DNA of 64,000 nucleotides from Bacteroidaceae bacterium (GTDB lineage Bacteria; Bacteroidota; Bacteroidia; Bacteroidales; Barnesiellaceae_A): the NCBI GenBank assembly GCA_017522135.1, contig JAFXAB010000050.1, positions 1 through 64,000 of the forward strand, in the 5' to 3' direction. A model generated the notes under the pieces. The model did no database searches and was not told the origin of the DNA. It saw only the letters and a program-made list of their open reading frames with translations. Below, piece by piece: positions 54,075-64,000 of the stretch. A program made the position numbers and the translations under genes. The number at the start of each line of letters is the position of its first letter. The first letter of the stretch is position 1.

Positions 54075-56099
54075 ATGAAACGATTTTTCAGCTACCTAAC
54101 ACTATTTACCATGATTGCAATGTGTGTAGGATGTTGCGCTACGACCGATGGCGACAACAACAACGTAGACGCGCTCGTTGCCGAGATGCAAAGTTTATAT
54201 CCCAATGCCAACTACGATACCATGAAGCGTGGTATTGAGCAGGCTGCAACTCTGTGGCAGGAGCAAGACGGCACAGCCGAAGAGTTTGCACAATTTGTCA
54301 AAGAAAACTATGTACCCGACTGTGAAGGTCGCAAAGTGTTGTTTGACAAGCTGTCGAAGGTGTACGAAGTGTTGCTGGGTGCACAAAACCAAGTGGCTGT
54401 AGAGCTGAACATACCCACCATGCTCACAGGCCCCGAGCTTATCGACCTCGACTATATCATGAGTGCCTTCAATCCCTTCTCGCACATGACTACCGACTTG
54501 TATGAGAATAAGGTGGCTTTTATTACCATCCTCAACTTCCCCAACTATACACTTGATGAGAAGAATGTATTGGGCAAGGAGTGGAGTCGCGAAGAGTGGG
54601 CATACGCTCGCATGGGCGATATGTTTACCTCTCGTGTACCTGCCGATATCAACAAGCAGATAGGTCAAGCCAATGCCGATGGCGAAAACTATATAGCCGG
54701 ATACAACATCATGATGGGACATCTGCTCAACGAAGAGGGTAAGCGTCTATTCCCCGACGATATGGTTTTGCTCTCACACTGGAACTTGCGCGATGAGATA
54801 AAGTCCAACTATGCCAATGTACCCAATGCTCACGAGAAACAAGAGATGATATACCAAGTAATGCAACGCATTGTCGATGGCTCTATACCTCAAGCCGTAG
54901 TCAACAATGCCGAGTACGATTGGGCTCCTTACAGCAACCGCACTTGGAAAGGTCAAGAGGAGGTAACACTTGCCGGTGAGGAGAATGGTCGCTACGACAT
55001 CATCTTGTCGCACTATGCAGCCATGAAAGCCGCCGATAAGTACGAGACTCAAGCCCCCACAGGCATTATACGCAACTTCGATATTGCCATGGAGATGACT
55101 TCTCAAGAGATTGAAGAGTTGTTTGTCAATCTTGTTTCGTCACCCCAAGTGAAGGCCGTAGGCAATCTTATCAAGGAACGATTAGGTCGCGATTTGCGCC
55201 CGTACGATATATGGTACGATGGCTTCAAGAGTCGCAGCACAATCTCCGAAGACCAACTCACAGCACTTACACGCAGCAAATATCCCACACCCGAGGCATT
55301 TGAGGCCGATATGCCTCGTATGCTCGTTGCATTTGGTTTTACACCTGCCGAAGCCAACTATCTGGCCGATAAAATTACCGTTCAAGGTGCTCGTGGCTCG
55401 GGTCACGCCTGGGGTGCTGTAGGTCGTTGGGAAAACTCATTGCTCCGCACCCGCATCGGAGGCGAGGGTATGGACTACAAAGGCTACAATATTGCCGTGC
55501 ATGAGTTTGGTCACAACGTAGAACAGACTATCGACCTCTATGATATCGACCACTACATGATGCGCGGTGTGCCCAATACCGGATTTACCGAGGCTTTGGC
55601 ATTTATCTTCCAAAAACGCGACCTGCAATTGCTCGGTTACAAACAACAAATAGACGACAATACAACACTCGACATCTTCTGGGGATTGTATGAGATAATG
55701 GGAGTATCGTTGGTAGACATGCGCATGTGGCAATGGCTCTACAAAAATCCCAATGCTACAGCCGCCGAGTTGCGCGAGACCACTCTTGCCATTGCTCGCG
55801 ATGTGTGGAACAGCTACTACGAACCTATATTGGGCGAAAAAGACTCTCCTATATTGGCTATATATTCGCACATGGTCAATTCGCCCATGTACTTGCCCAA
55901 TTATCCCTTGGGACACATTGTGGAGTTCCAACTCGAGGAGCACTTTGCGCAATTTACCAATCCTCGCGATTTTGCCACCGAGATTATGCGCATCTATCGT
56001 TTGGGCCGTCTCACACCCAACCATTGGATGCAACATGCCGTGGGTAGCAACTTGAGTACAACACCCATTCTTAATGCTATAGATGCTATCGTGAAGTAG
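54075..56099 (+). CDS. Large zincin metallopeptidase lipoprotein
   Basis: A 674-residue protein with a lipoprotein signal (lipobox ending at Cys20, 'MIAMCVGC'). The zinc site is 'HEFGHNVEQ' (His476, Glu477, His480), and a likely third ligand is Glu506 in 'TGFTEALAF', 26 residues later. This spacing is that of gluzincins such as the M3 oligopeptidases, but the rest is not a clear M3 match. It should act in the periplasm or at the outer membrane, on peptides. It is the last gene before a 728-base gap, with a terminator at 56126. Confidence 0.8.
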   Translation: MKRFFSYLTLFTMIAMCVGCCATTDGDNNNVDALVAEMQSLYPNANYDTMKRGIEQAATLWQEQDGTAEEFAQFVKENYVPDCEGRKVLFDKLSKVYEVLLGAQNQVAVELNIPTMLTGPELIDLDYIMSAFNPFSHMTTDLYENKVAFITILNFPNYTLDEKNVLGKEWSREEWAYARMGDMFTSRVPADINKQIGQANADGENYIAGYNIMMGHLLNEEGKRLFPDDMVLLSHWNLRDEIKSNYANVPNAHEKQEMIYQVMQRIVDGSIPQAVVNNAEYDWAPYSNRTWKGQEEVTLAGEENGRYDIILSHYAAMKAADKYETQAPTGIIRNFDIAMEMTSQEIEELFVNLVSSPQVKAVGNLIKERLGRDLRPYDIWYDGFKSRSTISEDQLTALTRSKYPTPEAFEADMPRMLVAFGFTPAEANYLADKITVQGARGSGHAWGAVGRWENSLLRTRIGGEGMDYKGYNIAVHEFGHNVEQTIDLYDIDHYMMRGVPNTGFTEALAFIFQKRDLQLLGYKQQIDDNTTLDIFWGLYEIMGVSLVDMRMWQWLYKNPNATAAELRETTLAIARDVWNSYYEPILGEKDSPILAIYSHMVNSPMYLPNYPLGHIVEFQLEEHFAQFTNPRDFATEIMRIYRLGRLTPNHWMQHAVGSNLSTTPILNAIDAIVK

Positions 56100-56766: not shown

Positions 56767-56827
56767 TAAAATTGCGAAGTACAAAAAACGCCTTATAGAA
56801 ACACCAAAGACAGAAAATAACAATTTG

Positions 56828-58105
56828 ATGAGAGTGCTTAGATACATAACGCTGATAACAACGTTGATTATTGCAATACCCGCAATAGCATCATTGCCAC
56901 AAAGCGTTCACAACACCGTTTCGGAAGATACGGCGACGACAGCACACCAAGTTGTTTCGGAAAAGTTTGCCATAGACTATCGCTTCGACCAGATTGTAAT
57001 CGACTCGATATACCTCGACAATAAAGAGGAGATAGACTACATCAAATATTACCTCAATCACACACCACGCATCGACAGTATCACCATCTACGCATGGGCA
57101 TCGCCCGAGGGTGCAACCGGCCACAACGAATGGTTGGCTCAGGAACGTGCCTTGGCTGCCAAGCAATTTTTGATAGAAAATTGCCCCGACACTGCCAAGC
57201 TCAATGCCGACAAGATAAAGATACAACCTTCGGCCGAGAACTGGCCGGGGCTGATACAACTCGTAGAGCAAAACTACCACCGCAAAAATCGCGATTTGGT
57301 ATTGCACATCTTACGCAACCCACGCCTGAGCAATGCCACACGCAAGTGGCGTCTGCAACACATCGACGACGGCACAACATGGCGTTACTTCCTGCGCCAC
57401 TACATGCCACACTTGCGCTATGCCACATGGAGTTGCACATGGATCAAGCTCGACGACCCCTTATTGCCTTCGCCTGCATTTGAGGTATCGGTGGTCGATG
57501 AGATGCCGGCTACCGACAAGTATACACCCGTAGAGATTGTCAAGCCTCAATTACGCACCATCATGGCAGCCAAAACCAATCTGCTATACGATGCGGTAAC
57601 AGCACTCAACTTTGCAATAGAGTTTCCAATAGCCGACCAATTCTCACTTCTTGCCGAGACACACTTCCCATGGTGGCTCAATCGCGACAACCGCAAGTGC
57701 TTGCAACTGCACACCTACGGGGGCGAGTTTCGCTGGTGGTTTTTGCCACAACCCACCAAGGCTACCCCCAAGCGACAAAAGCGTGATGTGCTCGTGGGCC
57801 ACTTCATCGGCTTGAACGGGTGGGGCGGTTATGGCGACATCCAGTGGGGTCGCGACTTCGGTTGCTACCAATTCGACTTCTGGAGCGTTGGCCTGTCGTA
57901 TGGCTATGCTATGCCCATAAGCCGCTATCTCAACCTCGAGTTCTCCATCTCGGGCGGATATGCCAACATTCCCTATCAGCACTACATTCCTACCGAAGAT
58001 TGGATGCACCTCATACGCGACGATAAGAAAGCCGGTACATTGCATTATCTCGGACTCACCAAGTTGCAGATAAGCCTTGTATTCCCCATAATGATTAAGT
58101 ATTGA
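56828..58105 (+). CDS. DUF3575 outer-membrane protein of a fimbrial operon
   Basis: A 425-residue exported protein (signal about residues 1-22, 'ITLITTLIIAIPAIA'). An OmpA-like peptidoglycan-binding segment follows ('ITIYAWASPEGATGHNEWLAQERALAAKQFL'). The C-terminal 180 residues are the DUF3575 beta-barrel ('TNLLYDAVTALNFAIEFPIADQFSLLAE', aromatic strand ends). DUF3575 genes commonly head Mfa/Fim pilus operons in Bacteroidales; the exact role is unknown. The ATG at 56828 is chosen over a TTG at 56825. The anchor gene follows after 6 bases. Confidence 0.85.
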   Translation: MRVLRYITLITTLIIAIPAIASLPQSVHNTVSEDTATTAHQVVSEKFAIDYRFDQIVIDSIYLDNKEEIDYIKYYLNHTPRIDSITIYAWASPEGATGHNEWLAQERALAAKQFLIENCPDTAKLNADKIKIQPSAENWPGLIQLVEQNYHRKNRDLVLHILRNPRLSNATRKWRLQHIDDGTTWRYFLRHYMPHLRYATWSCTWIKLDDPLLPSPAFEVSVVDEMPATDKYTPVEIVKPQLRTIMAAKTNLLYDAVTALNFAIEFPIADQFSLLAETHFPWWLNRDNRKCLQLHTYGGEFRWWFLPQPTKATPKRQKRDVLVGHFIGLNGWGGYGDIQWGRDFGCYQFDFWSVGLSYGYAMPISRYLNLEFSISGGYANIPYQHYIPTEDWMHLIRDDKKAGTLHYLGLTKLQISLVFPIMIKY

Positions 58106-58111
58106 TACAAC

Positions 58112-59179
58112 ATGAGACGCGCTATATACATATTATTTATGTTAGCTACACTATTGTGGTGTGGTTGCGAACGTCGTCCGCTTGAGGAGATGAGCAACAC
58201 GCACTACATGCGCGTCTATATCGACGAGGATATCCCCAACGTCACCACCGGACTATACAACGCCAACTACAAGCGTCCCCGATACACGCAGCCCGAGGTG
58301 TTGCGTGTTATACTCACCGATCTCACAACAGGAGAGGCTGTTGCCGAGCGTTTCTTGCGCCAACGTGGCGAGGACGAGCGTGGCACATACTACGAGGGAT
58401 GGGTAATTATAGACCCGGGTCGATATGGTGTCATAGCCTACAACTTCGACACCGAGACTACCATTGTCAACGACAGTTACCACTACCACGACGCCAAGGC
58501 CACAACCAACGAAATTGCCTATTATCTGCGCGACAAGATTATAAGCCGTGCCAACACCGATGTAGCCGCCAACGAACGCATCGTGTACGACCCCGACCAC
58601 CTATTTACTGCATCGTGTGGCGAGGTACATATACCCTTCGTCAACCACATCGACACCATTACCACGCTCGATGGCGACTATCTCACAGCACACACCCTTG
58701 TCAAGACCTACTATATGCAAGTGCGTGTACAGGGCATACAATATGCCACATCGTCGGTAGGATTGCTCACAGGCATGGCAGGCTCATCGTGGCTCAGCAC
58801 CCGTACCATGGATGCCGATGACAATGTCACCCTATACTTCGAGATGCAACCCGGCATATCTACCCCCACCGGCATAGTACGTGGCGAGAATGAAGATGTA
58901 ATGACCATATACACATCGTTCAACACCTTTGGCAAACTGCCCAATGAGCAGAACAAACTGGAGATTACGTTCGACTTCCTCACCACCTACGGTGTACCCT
59001 ATAGCGAGACTTTAGATATCACCGAGCTATTCCACACCCCCGAGGGTCGCGACAACCAATGGTTGATTATCGACCACGTCATCAGGATTCCCGACCCGCC
59101 ACCACCCACCGAAGGCGGAGGTGGTTTTGCTCCCTCGGTTGACGAATGGGAGGATGTGCACACCGACATTATTATATAA
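58112..59179 (+). CDS. DUF5119 / Mfa2-FimB-like anchor subunit
   Basis: A 355-residue lipoprotein (lipobox 'LLWCGC', Cys19). The fold pattern is that of the DUF5119/FimB-Mfa2 group: an N-terminal beta-domain ('MRVYIDEDIPN', 'GRYGVIAYNFDTE') and a second domain with 'YYMQVRVQGIQYATSSVGLLTGMAGS'. In type V pili this subunit anchors the fibre in the outer membrane and is not cut by the maturation protease. No Arg-type cleavage site follows the cysteine, consistent with that. It ends 60 bases before the major fimbrillin. Confidence 0.82.
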   Translation: MRRAIYILFMLATLLWCGCERRPLEEMSNTHYMRVYIDEDIPNVTTGLYNANYKRPRYTQPEVLRVILTDLTTGEAVAERFLRQRGEDERGTYYEGWVIIDPGRYGVIAYNFDTETTIVNDSYHYHDAKATTNEIAYYLRDKIISRANTDVAANERIVYDPDHLFTASCGEVHIPFVNHIDTITTLDGDYLTAHTLVKTYYMQVRVQGIQYATSSVGLLTGMAGSSWLSTRTMDADDNVTLYFEMQPGISTPTGIVRGENEDVMTIYTSFNTFGKLPNEQNKLEITFDFLTTYGVPYSETLDITELFHTPEGRDNQWLIIDHVIRIPDPPPPTEGGGGFAPSVDEWEDVHTDIII

Positions 59180-59239: not shown

Positions 59240-60403
59240 ATGAAAAAGTTATTATTTTGGACAGCATTGGCAAGTGTAGCACTTACCGGCTGCGTAAAGA
59301 ACGACGTGGAGCCCAATCCAAGTTTGGGACAAGATGTTGAAATTACTTTCAACCAACCTGTTGTAGGTAAGATTACTAAAGCTCATATTGGAGAAATTAA
59401 GGATGCTCAATATCCTACAACAGAACAATTTATTGTTCATGCATGGGCTCACGAAGGTTATTTTAACCAGGCTGCTTCGCCTGTGGTTTATATCGATCAA
59501 CAAGGAACTACCCATTTTGATGGACAAGGCTTAACAGGTCCTGATGGAGATACCGGAACCTATGGTACTTGGCGTATAAACCCTACCTATTACTGGCCCA
59601 AAACACACTATCTTACATTCTCTGCTTTTTCACCCGCAAAATTAAAAGACAACCCAACATATGCAGATACAACTAAGATAGATTTGGTTAATGGTATTAC
59701 ATTGACCAATGTAAAAACGCCTACAGATATTGACGATCACTATGATTTGCTTTATAGCGACCGTGTATACAACCAAAGAGAGAGAGAATATACCCATGAT
59801 AACGACAATTATTATGGTGTAGACGTTCTTTTCAACCACGCATTGGCTTCAGTTAATGTACAAGCCCAATGGGCTAAAGATTATAATGAAGGTATTCTTA
59901 ATGGCGAAAACAAAATCGTCATTACAGATATTCATTTTGAAAACGTATGTTTCCAAGCTACATTTAACGAGAATGTAGGTGGTAATCGTGCATTGGTTAA
60001 CTCTGATAATAGAAACAATGCTACATGGAACAATCCCACCAATCCTCAAAGCATTTCTATTAAAGCTAATAATTCTAATAACCTCACATTAAATACAACA
60101 GCACAAACATTCGGTGTTCCCGCATTGTTTATTCCTCAAAATCTTACAGTGGGTGGTAATACAAAACTTGTTGTTGACTACACAATTACTAACACCGGTG
60201 GTGCCGAGTTAAATGAAACTATAACATTTGACTTGTCTGATATTGAGTTCACTGATGATGACGACGCTGATGGTGTTTGGGAAATTGGCAAACGCTACAC
60301 TTATACTTTGACATTCGGTCTTAATGAAATCCACTTGGCTCCCTATGTTGATTCTTGGGATCCTGTTGATACAGGTTTTAACGACGTAATTGGTTCAATC
60401 TAA
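59240..60403 (+). CDS. Major fimbrillin (type V pilus shaft subunit)
   Basis: A 387-residue fimbrillin-family lipoprotein (lipobox 'VALTGC', Cys18). It has the Mfa-like two-domain layout, with 'FLVHAW'-type opening strand ('FIVHAWAHEG'), 'PTYYWPKTHYLTFSAFSP' and 'VLFNHALASVNVQA', and a C-terminal strand 'RYTYTLTFGLNEIHLAPYVDSW' able to complete a neighbouring subunit. Codons mostly end in T or A, unlike the flanking genes, as expected of a very highly expressed shaft subunit. The site where others carry Arg (45-48) reads 'GKITKAH' with Lys44 and Lys47. A terminator-like hairpin follows. Confidence 0.85.
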   Translation: MKKLLFWTALASVALTGCVKNDVEPNPSLGQDVEITFNQPVVGKITKAHIGEIKDAQYPTTEQFIVHAWAHEGYFNQAASPVVYIDQQGTTHFDGQGLTGPDGDTGTYGTWRINPTYYWPKTHYLTFSAFSPAKLKDNPTYADTTKIDLVNGITLTNVKTPTDIDDHYDLLYSDRVYNQREREYTHDNDNYYGVDVLFNHALASVNVQAQWAKDYNEGILNGENKIVITDIHFENVCFQATFNENVGGNRALVNSDNRNNATWNNPTNPQSISIKANNSNNLTLNTTAQTFGVPALFIPQNLTVGGNTKLVVDYTITNTGGAELNETITFDLSDIEFTDDDDADGVWEIGKRYTYTLTFGLNEIHLAPYVDSWDPVDTGFNDVIGSI

Positions 60404-60413
60404 TCCTTATACA

Positions 60414-60459
60414 AGAGAGCGTGCCACGCCACGTGTGTGGCACACTCTCTACTTTTTTC
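60414..60459 (+). terminator. Hairpin between major fimbrillin and accessory pilus genes
   Basis: AGAGAGCGTGCCAC (60414-60427) pairs with GTGGCACACTCTCT (60437-60450), with one mismatch, followed by six T near 60453-60459. It could trim most transcripts after the shaft gene and leave a minority for the downstream subunits. Confidence 0.8.
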
Positions 60460-60486
60460 ACATAGAAACAGACAAAACAAAGAGTA

Positions 60487-61434
60487 ATGAAACGAAGCAT
60501 ATACATACTTGCAACGGTGTTGACTGTGGGTTGCGCCATAGACATGCCCGACGTGTATGACCCCGAGTTGCGCATATTGTTCCAGCCCGGTGTATATAGC
60601 CACATTGAGCAAGTAGAGAGCAATCGTTTCACACCCGACATGACCATGGGCGTGTGTGCATGGCTATTGGGCGAGGACGAGTCGTGGCAACAGAATGCCG
60701 GCAATGCAACGCCTTATCTGTCGCTATCGGAGGCTTACAGCCAAGATGTTACCGTGCAGAAGGGCGACTCGAACATCACACACACCGATACGTATTGGAT
60801 GGTAAGCGACTCGACACTGTGGCCTGCTACTACCGAAACTCTCACATTCCTTGCTTATGCCCCATACGAGGCTCACTGCGGTTGCGATGCAGTGAAAGGG
60901 GTGACGTACACAACAAACACACTCGACTCGCAAGTCGACTTGTTATATACGACACCACACACCGAGAGATACAAGAGTAGCAATGGTGGTATCGTGCAGT
61001 TGCTGTTCGACCATGCACTGTGCTGTGTCAATTTCCGCGTAAAAAATCGTGTCACCACCGACGAGAAGATAACCCTCAAACGCATCACCATCGACAAAGT
61101 GCATTACAAAGGGTCGTTTGCCTCGATGTGCACACCGCAATGGCAACTCGACGAGGCTACTACCTCGCTATGTTTCTACGAGGGTGCACACACCACCCAA
61201 GGTTTGCCCGAAGAGGTGGGAGAGAGCTTGTTGCTGCTACCGCAACAACTCGACACACAGATGACCGTAGAGTGGGAGTATACCACTGCTGCCGGCACAT
61301 CGATAGAACAACGCTTGCAAACAATTCCTCTCAACATGGTATTAAATGCCGGTTGGGGGTATACATACACACTCTCTATAGGCATAGACGATGTCAAGTT
61401 CCTGAAAGAGATAGTTGAGCACCGTTTTAAATAG
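60487..61434 (+). CDS. Accessory fimbrillin-like lipoprotein 1
   Basis: A 315-residue lipoprotein (lipobox 'LTVGC', Cys16) of the Mfa-like fimbrillin family, with 'STLWPATTETLTFLAYAP', 'VQLLFDHALCCVNFRV' and a C-terminal 'WGYTYTLSIGIDDVKF' strand. Arg47 ('ESNRFTP') sits where the pilus maturation protease would cut. By position after the shaft gene it is probably a tip or minor subunit. It is 7 bases ahead of the next gene. Confidence 0.8.
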   Translation: MKRSIYILATVLTVGCAIDMPDVYDPELRILFQPGVYSHIEQVESNRFTPDMTMGVCAWLLGEDESWQQNAGNATPYLSLSEAYSQDVTVQKGDSNITHTDTYWMVSDSTLWPATTETLTFLAYAPYEAHCGCDAVKGVTYTTNTLDSQVDLLYTTPHTERYKSSNGGIVQLLFDHALCCVNFRVKNRVTTDEKITLKRITIDKVHYKGSFASMCTPQWQLDEATTSLCFYEGAHTTQGLPEEVGESLLLLPQQLDTQMTVEWEYTTAAGTSIEQRLQTIPLNMVLNAGWGYTYTLSIGIDDVKFLKEIVEHRFK

Positions 61435-61441
61435 TGATAAG

Positions 61442-62506
61442 ATGAAAAAAAACCACACATATATATGCCTCGCAATCATCATGGCAACACTCAATGCCTG
61501 CAAGAGCGATGAGCCACCGGTGATAGTCGAGAGTCAAAATCCTATCATGCTCGGAGTAGGGCATAAGCCCACACGCGCCACTATAATTGAGCACGACAGC
61601 ATGCTCATCAAGCACGACATGGGTGGTGGCAACTACACATTGGACAGCTATGTAACAGGCACAACCACACAATACCACAAGGACAATTGGGTATATTACT
61701 TCCCCGACGGCGAGCGTTGGTGGTTTCGCACAGGCAATACCATGTACAATACCTATTGGCCCAAAGCCAATAATCTCGATTTCTTGGCCTACATGCCACA
61801 CAAAGAACGACTTGCCCAAAGCACATTTGAGCCGGAGCCATACCAGCCGACCATAGGGGCATCGTTTTCTTGTACTCTGCCATTGGTATACAACGGTACA
61901 ACACCACCCGCCGGTGTAGTGACACAAGACAACGTGCAGGAGTTTGTCTATGCCTATACCTGCAACAAAGGCTACGACGACCAAGTGGCCGCCGGTGGTG
62001 CAATACCACTGCAATTTGTACACCCTACGGCTGCCATATACCTCAAGTTGGCACAATCGTACCGCATGACATTGAGCTCTATAAGTTTGGAAAACATCTA
62101 CAACCAAGGCACTTATAGTTGCACCAACGACACAGGCGACCCGGCATTTGAGTATGGCACATGGAGCCACCATGGCGACAAGACAGGCAATGACCTTGTG
62201 CTCAACTTCAACAAGAAAGTGCCCGAGGATATCAACTACAACACCGTGTTTGCAGGGCCTATATTGGTATTGCCCCAAGCGCTCGACAACGTCATCCTCG
62301 ACATCAAGGCGCAACGTACCGACGGTACGACGTATAACAAGGCGCTCAACTTCAACACCGTCGATGCGGCCTATCGCAAGTGGGAGTGCGGCAAGAAATA
62401 TACCTATACACTCCAGCTCGACGATAACAATGAAGAGATACTCTTCAAGATAGAGGTAGAGCCATGGACCGATGTAGAACACGAACACATTGTAGACGTA
62501 GAATAA
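61442..62506 (+). CDS. Accessory fimbrillin-like lipoprotein 2
   Basis: A 354-residue lipoprotein (Cys20, 'ATLNAC'). Fimbrillin marks are 'GVGHKPTRATII' around Arg45, 'TYWPKANNLDFLAYMP', 'IPLQFVHPTAAIYLKL' and 'KYTYTLQLDDNNEEILFKIEVEPW'. The 'PTRAT' motif is the usual cleavage environment of Bacteroidales fimbrillins. The ATG at 61442 starts the signal peptide; an upstream in-frame start overlaps the previous gene. It is followed one base later by the next subunit gene. Confidence 0.8.
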   Translation: MKKNHTYICLAIIMATLNACKSDEPPVIVESQNPIMLGVGHKPTRATIIEHDSMLIKHDMGGGNYTLDSYVTGTTTQYHKDNWVYYFPDGERWWFRTGNTMYNTYWPKANNLDFLAYMPHKERLAQSTFEPEPYQPTIGASFSCTLPLVYNGTTPPAGVVTQDNVQEFVYAYTCNKGYDDQVAAGGAIPLQFVHPTAAIYLKLAQSYRMTLSSISLENIYNQGTYSCTNDTGDPAFEYGTWSHHGDKTGNDLVLNFNKKVPEDINYNTVFAGPILVLPQALDNVILDIKAQRTDGTTYNKALNFNTVDAAYRKWECGKKYTYTLQLDDNNEEILFKIEVEPWTDVEHEHIVDVE

Positions 62507-62507
62507 G

Positions 62508-63560
62508 ATGAAAGAGAGAAGATATTATATAATATTATGTATATTGGCTCTTTTCCTCACCGCGTGTGAGAAAGACAATTTGTTGCAAAACGATAGCGAC
62601 ACAGGCAAGTTTTACCTGCAAGCGACCATCGAGAACAGGGTTGTAACACGCAGTCCTTATACCTTGACAGCACCTACAGTCGATTACCCATTGCATGCTA
62701 CAGTATATGCCTCTACCCACAACAATGCCTATCCCAACAGTGGCGATAATGGTCAGGGAGGAAGCGAGACGGTGGCCATACACACTACAGCCAACTTCCA
62801 GAACAGTGGGCCGCAACTGCTCAACGGGGCTATTTATCCCAAGAAGAGCAACGGCGACCCGTACGATGTAAATTTTGTAGCTTTCTATCCGCAAACACCA
62901 TGGACAGCACAAGCCGACGGCACAAAGACTGAGTTTACATTCGACGGCAGTCAAGACGTAATGTTTGCCCCCCAAATTGTGGGTAGATATGGTGCAGGAT
63001 ACCCTACCATCAGCTTCAAACACCTGCTCACATGGTTGCGCATAAGCATCATGGCCGAGAACGAAGATGTGAGCATCGCTTGGGGTAAGATAAAAAGCAT
63101 CAAGATAAAGAGCAAAAACCACGTAACGGTAGACTTGTCGCACACCGACAGCAATGTAGCCAACTTGGTGACATACGACAACGATACCCCCTTGCCATTC
63201 TATGCCACAGGCAGTAATAACACGATATTTCCCAATGCCTCGGGCTACACATTGCCCTACGACAAGTTTCACGAAGTAGCCTATGTATTGTGTGCACCGG
63301 TTGTAGCTCCCGTAGTAGAGGTTATAGACGGCGTAGATACCGAGGTAGGAGAGTACTTGCTATATATAGAGTCTGAGAAACGCAACGCATTGGTACCCAT
63401 ATATCTATATAAAGACGCAACGACACGATTTGACAAATCGACAAGAGCACACCGTTTTGACATCAAGTTACTCTTCCACATGGGTAGCAGCGTGAGCGCG
63501 TCGGGTGCTGTTGTAGACTGGTTTACAGGCGGTATAGGATATGGCGGCCTTGACGAATAA
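62508..63560 (+). CDS. Accessory fimbrillin-like lipoprotein 3
   Basis: A 350-residue lipoprotein (Cys20, 'LFLTAC'). It has 'IENRVVTRSPYTLT' (Arg44, Arg48) at the maturation position, 'NFVAFYPQTPW', 'ISFKHLLTWLRISI' and a C-terminal strand ('RAHRFDIKLLFHM'). The final 20 residues ('AVVDWFTGGIGYGGLDE') resemble the end of Mfa-type tip or shaft proteins. It starts one base after the preceding stop, so the two are coupled. Confidence 0.78.
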   Translation: MKERRYYIILCILALFLTACEKDNLLQNDSDTGKFYLQATIENRVVTRSPYTLTAPTVDYPLHATVYASTHNNAYPNSGDNGQGGSETVAIHTTANFQNSGPQLLNGAIYPKKSNGDPYDVNFVAFYPQTPWTAQADGTKTEFTFDGSQDVMFAPQIVGRYGAGYPTISFKHLLTWLRISIMAENEDVSIAWGKIKSIKIKSKNHVTVDLSHTDSNVANLVTYDNDTPLPFYATGSNNTIFPNASGYTLPYDKFHEVAYVLCAPVVAPVVEVIDGVDTEVGEYLLYIESEKRNALVPIYLYKDATTRFDKSTRAHRFDIKLLFHMGSSVSASGAVVDWFTGGIGYGGLDE

Positions 63561-63576: not shown

Positions 63577-64000
63577 ATGAAGTACAGATATATATTAGGC
63601 ACTATACTGCTGACAGTGATACTATCGGCATGCGAGAAGCCTCATCAGCCAGGCGATAACAACATACGACTCAATGCCCGGGTGTCAAATCCCATCGAAG
63701 TCATTGTGCGTGCGCAAGTGGATGAATATCGAGGCATATATCCCAGTATCGACAATCCGCTGTATGCCGATGTATGGTTCTCGCTCGAGCCCGGAGTATT
63801 TCCGCACAACCCACAGCCCGATACTAACATTCCTTGTCACTCGCACATCAAGTATGAAGGCGAGATAACCGACCCTATATCATCCGACGCGTCGGGCGCC
63901 GACATTCAACCGGCTTATCCCACCGACGACAGCCCCGTGTATTGCGTAGGATTTTATCCGGCAACTACCCCCAACAGTAGCACCGAACAGTCGTGGACAT
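63577..64000 (+). CDS. Accessory fimbrillin-like lipoprotein 4 (partial)
   Basis: 141 residues are seen before the window ends. A lipobox ('ILSAC', Cys19) follows a short signal, then 'IRLNARVSNPIEVIVRAQVD' and later 'YCVGFYPATTPNSSTEQSW', an early fimbrillin strand pattern. A strong ribosome site AAAGGAGG lies 6-7 bases before the ATG, unusual for this phylum. It continues the pilus operon beyond the window. Confidence 0.75.
   Translation, partial: MKYRYILGTILLTVILSACEKPHQPGDNNIRLNARVSNPIEVIVRAQVDEYRGIYPSIDNPLYADVWFSLEPGVFPHNPQPDTNIPCHSHIKYEGEITDPISSDASGADIQPAYPTDDSPVYCVGFYPATTPNSSTEQSWT

Follow-up and report, generated by a model that had tools for sequence, protein, structure and literature searches.

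Lysine at the predicted maturation site of a Bacteroidales type V pilus shaft protein is an ordinary variant of a conserved basic site

The FimA and Mfa1 fimbriae of P. gingivalis are organised into shaft, anchor and tip, and the N-terminal extension of their subunits is removed by the gingipains RgpA/B, which cut at Arg. Type V pilins of Bacteroides and Parabacteroides are made as lipoprotein precursors with a basic residue 24–35 positions after the lipid-bearing Cys, in the loop between strands beta1 and beta2. This residue is Lys43 in BdiFim1A (3liu), Lys47 in 4jg5, Lys50 in 3r4r, Lys54 in BovFim2C (3up6) and Arg55 in BovFim3A (4jrf), so that several of these pilins, one of them a shaft protein, have a Lys site (PMC4789730 Table 2; PMC5789003). 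Kloppsteck et al. gave Lys50, Lys47, Lys43 and Lys54 as putative sites of pilins from gut Bacteroidales and showed that Mfa4 carrying R53K is still processed, to an unchanged size (PMC4789730); Hall et al. noted that BdiFim1A and BdiFim1C have Lys in the very same position (PMC5789003). Among possible maturases, the C11 protease PmC11 takes either Lys or Arg as its P1 residue (PMC4850288) and fragipain cleaves Arg-Ala bonds (PMC8406203); according to a 2025 review, surface clostripain is the maturase of type V pilins (PMC12632263).

The window, a 64,000-nt stretch of DNA, comes from an assembly of 2.1 Mb that is 88 % complete and has a Bacteroidales-type gene content. It carries an operon in which a DUF3575/OmpA gene is followed by a DUF5119 anchor, a first fimbrillin and further subunits (Table 1), with a 1141-aa tip candidate containing TRA located after acc4 and outside the window. 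Anchor, shaft and tip genes lie in one operon, and a signal-peptidase-II lipobox marks the subunits as lipoproteins. The two-domain fimbrillin fold was detected by both PF13149 and Foldseek. The fold search with the model predicted for the shaft (mean pLDDT 74, pTM 0.78) returned Bacteroides fimbrillins, its matches including 4k4k, 4qb7 and the FimA prepilin 6jzk with E values from 1e-13 to 1e-7 and TM-scores of only about 0.4–0.65. A PDB sequence search with the shaft protein as single query gave no matches, a scan of the same protein against the genome contigs found no relatives, and the PF06321 (FimA) profile gave a single weak match, to another gene on contig C7. The locus is an ordinary type V (Mfa/Fim-type) pilus operon. 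It shares its shaft, anchor and tip organisation with the P. gingivalis fimbriae and its precursor type with the Bacteroides and Parabacteroides pilins, but differs from the latter in low sequence identity and in an anchor of the DUF5119 rather than the Mfa2/FimB type.

Table 1. Pilus operon genes and selected residues in the window
Feature	Position	Strand	Basis and remarks
DUF3575/OmpA-like protein, operon head	56825..58105	+	Pfam PF12099, 2.1e-26
DUF5119 lipoprotein, presumed pilus anchor	58112..59179	+	PF17145, 1.2e-19; precedes first fimbrillin in surveyed operons
First fimbrillin, presumed shaft subunit, 387 aa	59240..60403	+	PF13149 Mfa_like_1, 1.3e-14; fold search finds type V pilins including FimA prepilin
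Lipid-acceptor Cys18 of shaft precursor	59291..59293	+	Lipobox LTGC
Lys47 codon, predicted P1 of maturation cut (IT-K-AH)	59378..59380	+	Motif score 15.4; paralogue alignment; beta1-beta2 loop of model
Accessory fimbrillin 1 (acc1)	60487..61434	+	PF13149, 2.9e-19; R47 (60625-60627) non-consensus candidate site
Accessory fimbrillin 2 (acc2)	61442..62506	+	PF13149, 5.1e-16; R45 (61574-61576) fits site motif, score 14.2
Accessory subunit 3 (acc3)	62508..63560	+	Weak FimD N-terminal match; R48 (62649-62651) fits site motif, score 11.1
Accessory fimbrillin 4 (acc4), continues past window end	63577..63999	+	Candidate site R45 (63709-63711)

The sequence-only reading had drawn attention to the motif GKITKAH in the shaft, with Lys44 and Lys47 and without Arg, and to Arg at residues 45–48 of the accessory subunits. 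Both descriptions were borne out by the translations. Past its lipobox Cys the shaft precursor has K20, K44, K47 and K54, and its first Arg is R112. The accessories contain R47 in ESNRFTP (acc1), R45 in KPTRAT (acc2), R48 in ENRVVTRSP (acc3) and R45 in IVRAQ (acc4), with a second Arg (R44) in acc3 and a Lys (K42) in acc2 three residues N-terminal of its Arg.

The maturation site was surveyed in about 60 DUF5119 operons (loci L033-L091), sampled throughout the order with each species represented by one genome; subunits were defined as lipoproteins called downstream of the DUF5119 anchor. Lys and Arg were merged to one letter when the motif was fitted, so that neither was favoured. A conserved processing motif, [I/L]xF…T-[K/R]-[A/S/G], was recovered; it follows the lipid Cys by a median of 27 residues and consists of a strand-like [I/L]xF stretch, Thr (64 %), Lys or Arg, and then Ala, Ser or Gly. 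A match to [TS][KR][ASGT] at 20–40 residues past the lipid Cys was present in 109 of 165 subunits, as against 15.2 +/- 3.6 after shuffling; the conserved basic site is well beyond chance. Within the window operon, Lys47 of the shaft, R45 of acc2, R48 of acc3 and R45 of acc4 matched the motif, as did the Arg of the tip candidate. The NRFTP stretch of acc1, previously taken as an equivalent Arg site, does contain R47 but does not match the motif. The usual basic position is now non-basic in acc1, relatives have Arg there, and R47 lies 5–6 residues deeper in the loop, which makes this a doubtful accessory site as judged from the sequence. The structure model of acc1 was too poor for use (pLDDT 64). 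With R47 as its sole candidate, acc1 may be cut inefficiently or remain lipid-anchored.

In the shaft model Lys47 falls in a flexible, low-confidence loop between strand 1 (precursor residues 34–38) and strand 2 (65–71), as in solved prepilins. It aligns exactly with the Arg of TRA in a paralogue from the same genome, with T46 and A48 invariant. Motif and model together support Lys47 as occupying the expected position of the maturation cut, and the shaft is probably trimmed after Lys and the tip pieces after Arg. A cut after Lys44 or Lys54 instead is improbable. Both residues are near the loop, and the position within it is flexible in the family, Lys54 of BovFim2C also being in the loop (PMC5789003), but only Lys47 is preceded by Thr, followed by Ala and aligned with the paralogue Arg, and Lys44 aligns with non-basic residues.

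The Lys of the shaft is not a special feature. The survey of homologues showed both residues in shafts and accessories alike, with a Lys:Arg ratio of 19:34 in first subunits (Lys in 19 of 53) and 28:59 in later ones (28 of 87; Fisher P=0.71), and a general rule of Lys for the shaft and Arg for the tip was rejected. The shaft orthologue in G004, the only close orthologue found, has kept Lys rather than Arg together with the whole N-terminal segment through TKA, the proteins being only 57 % identical. A sister shaft locus in the same genome reads MTRANVYGEIG and its 67 % identical relative in G005, of the same genus, reads VTKANVYGEIG, which indicates that the two residues replace each other freely here. 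Set against background composition, Arg is favoured, Lys making up 32–36 % of sites against a background of 62–79 %, and Lys may therefore be the less preferred residue. Since Lys appears in the published lists of pilin sites (PMC4789730, PMC5789003), Lys47 is an ordinary instance of known variation. The same follows for a Lys shaft with Arg tips, given that both residues are common at the site and that one known kind of protease accepts either.

The shaft gene has a GC3 of 0.29 compared with 0.53–0.62 in its operon neighbours. Its identity to the G004 orthologue is about 98 % at the 5' end and again immediately beyond the 3' end, but mostly 43–77 % in the core, a pattern that a mosaic or diversifying surface antigen would be expected to show.

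The earlier reading had further proposed that a Lys-specific protease matures the shaft, or that the shaft is matured separately from its tips. A dedicated Lys-specific protease for the shaft with a separate Arg-specific one for the accessories, on the pattern of P. gingivalis Kgp and Rgp, would fit the 10 of 33 operons in which a Lys shaft has all-Arg partners. It would also fit an excess of Lys on first subunits within operons with several called sites (18 vs 12.4 expected, P=0.004). However, first-subunit genes were more AT-rich at third positions in 33 of 43 operons and their proteins were richer in Lys, and with this Lys difference weighted for, the excess dropped to z=1.8, so that composition largely explains what remains of the rule within operons. 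Relatives of Rgp or Kgp were not detected in the genome, although at 88 % completeness of the assembly a protease could be missing, and Kgp is dispensable for Mfa1 in P. gingivalis itself (PMC5954841). Two dedicated proteases are thus very improbable. The Lys-specific enzyme is unsupported, with no Kgp or Rgp relative found and a C11 family that takes both Arg and Lys (PMC4850288), and separate maturation of the shaft is likewise unsupported since the residues are interchangeable and the genome's own second shaft has Arg.

The only gingipain-family (C25) proteins detected in the genome were two PorU sortases, encoded close together at L026:4220-12529, the second adjoining PorV; the presence of C25 was uninformative for the maturase, the family occurring in 354 of 393 genomes, as expected for PorU. 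Just upstream of the operon, a 674-aa lipoprotein (54075-56099) carries HEFGHN, which resembles a zinc-peptidase motif, and matches no Pfam family above cut-off; it was rejected as maturase because none of the other pilus loci retrieved has a relative of it. A single clostripain-family (C11) lipoprotein is encoded outside the pilus operon at L028:2458-3621, with counterparts of 72 % identity in G004 and 63 % in G005. It matched a C11 zymogen at E=3e-48 and chains of the 4yec and 3uws C11 entries at 1e-33. Like PmC11 and fragipain, it is a lipoprotein with the family's catalytic motifs, namely a DAC catalytic/S1 motif and a His-containing motif, and its lipobox, whose Cys is closely followed by a KDE motif, suggests a surface location. 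Its presumed specificity is taken from these relatives, and this single surface lipoprotein is the enzyme that most likely cuts the pilin precursors after both Lys and Arg.

The distribution of C11 was strongly associated with that of pilins among the 393 genomes. C11 was present in 37 of 44 DUF5119 genomes compared with 54 of 349 others, and in 55 of 67 Mfa_like_1 genomes compared with 36 of 326 others, both counts ignoring phylogeny. Three genomes (G016, G095 and G113) had Lys and Arg sites and C11 without a C25 match. Some pilin-free genomes also had C11 (21 compact cases), and C11 was undetected in seven DUF5119 genomes, which means that another maturase must exist somewhere. These seven genomes would also suit an alternative in which another trypsin-like protease or a host gut protease makes the cut and the link with C11 is merely phylogenetic. 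Host trypsin would cleave after Lys and Arg alike. Host proteases can moreover activate a B. fragilis surface precursor that is normally cut by fragipain (PMC8406203). This alternative is nevertheless unlikely, as a C11 gene lies just downstream of four of 74 DUF5119 anchors (G255, G343, G393 and G212) where about 0.13 would be expected, and clostripain has been named in print as the pilin maturase (PMC12632263). In these four genomes the C11 gene is directly downstream of the anchor or the pilus operon (loci L051, L057, L085 and L088).

The residue before the cut was compared between genomes with and without C11, with P2 masked during site calling. Thr or Ser occupied P2 at 125 of 157 sites in C11 genomes and at 4 of 20 sites in pilin genomes without detected C11, where P2 was mostly Leu or Met (L036, L054, L074, L076, L092-L098); the 20 sites come from 8 genomes of a few families, and lineage may explain the difference instead of the protease. 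A cruder count at genome level gave P=0.017. It is possible, and put forward tentatively, that T-[K/R]-A/S/G is the C11 cleavage signature and that Bacteroidales without C11 use a different protease reading Leu or Met before the basic residue. The shift is suggestive and is treated as a lead only.

Taken as a whole, a type V pilus operon in which one basic-residue protease, most likely C11, serves both a Lys shaft and Arg accessories is the reading that we regard as probable. Each pilin would be exported as a surface lipoprotein precursor in which, before processing, beta-strand 1 fills the groove of the pilin's own N-domain. Cleavage in the loop between strands 1 and 2, C-terminal to a single basic residue that we infer to be Lys47 in the shaft and Arg in most accessories, would release this strand, detach the pilin from its lipid and leave the groove open to a donor strand from the following subunit. 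The same enzyme, most likely the surface C11 lipoprotein of the genome, would cut shaft and accessories. The tempting hypothesis of a second protease for the shaft then becomes unneeded. The survey describes the site of pilin maturation order-wide, as T-[K/R]-A/S/G with about one third Lys, and provides independent genomic support for clostripain as the maturase where gingipains are absent. Lineages that lack C11 have lost the Thr signature, a hint of a second maturase.
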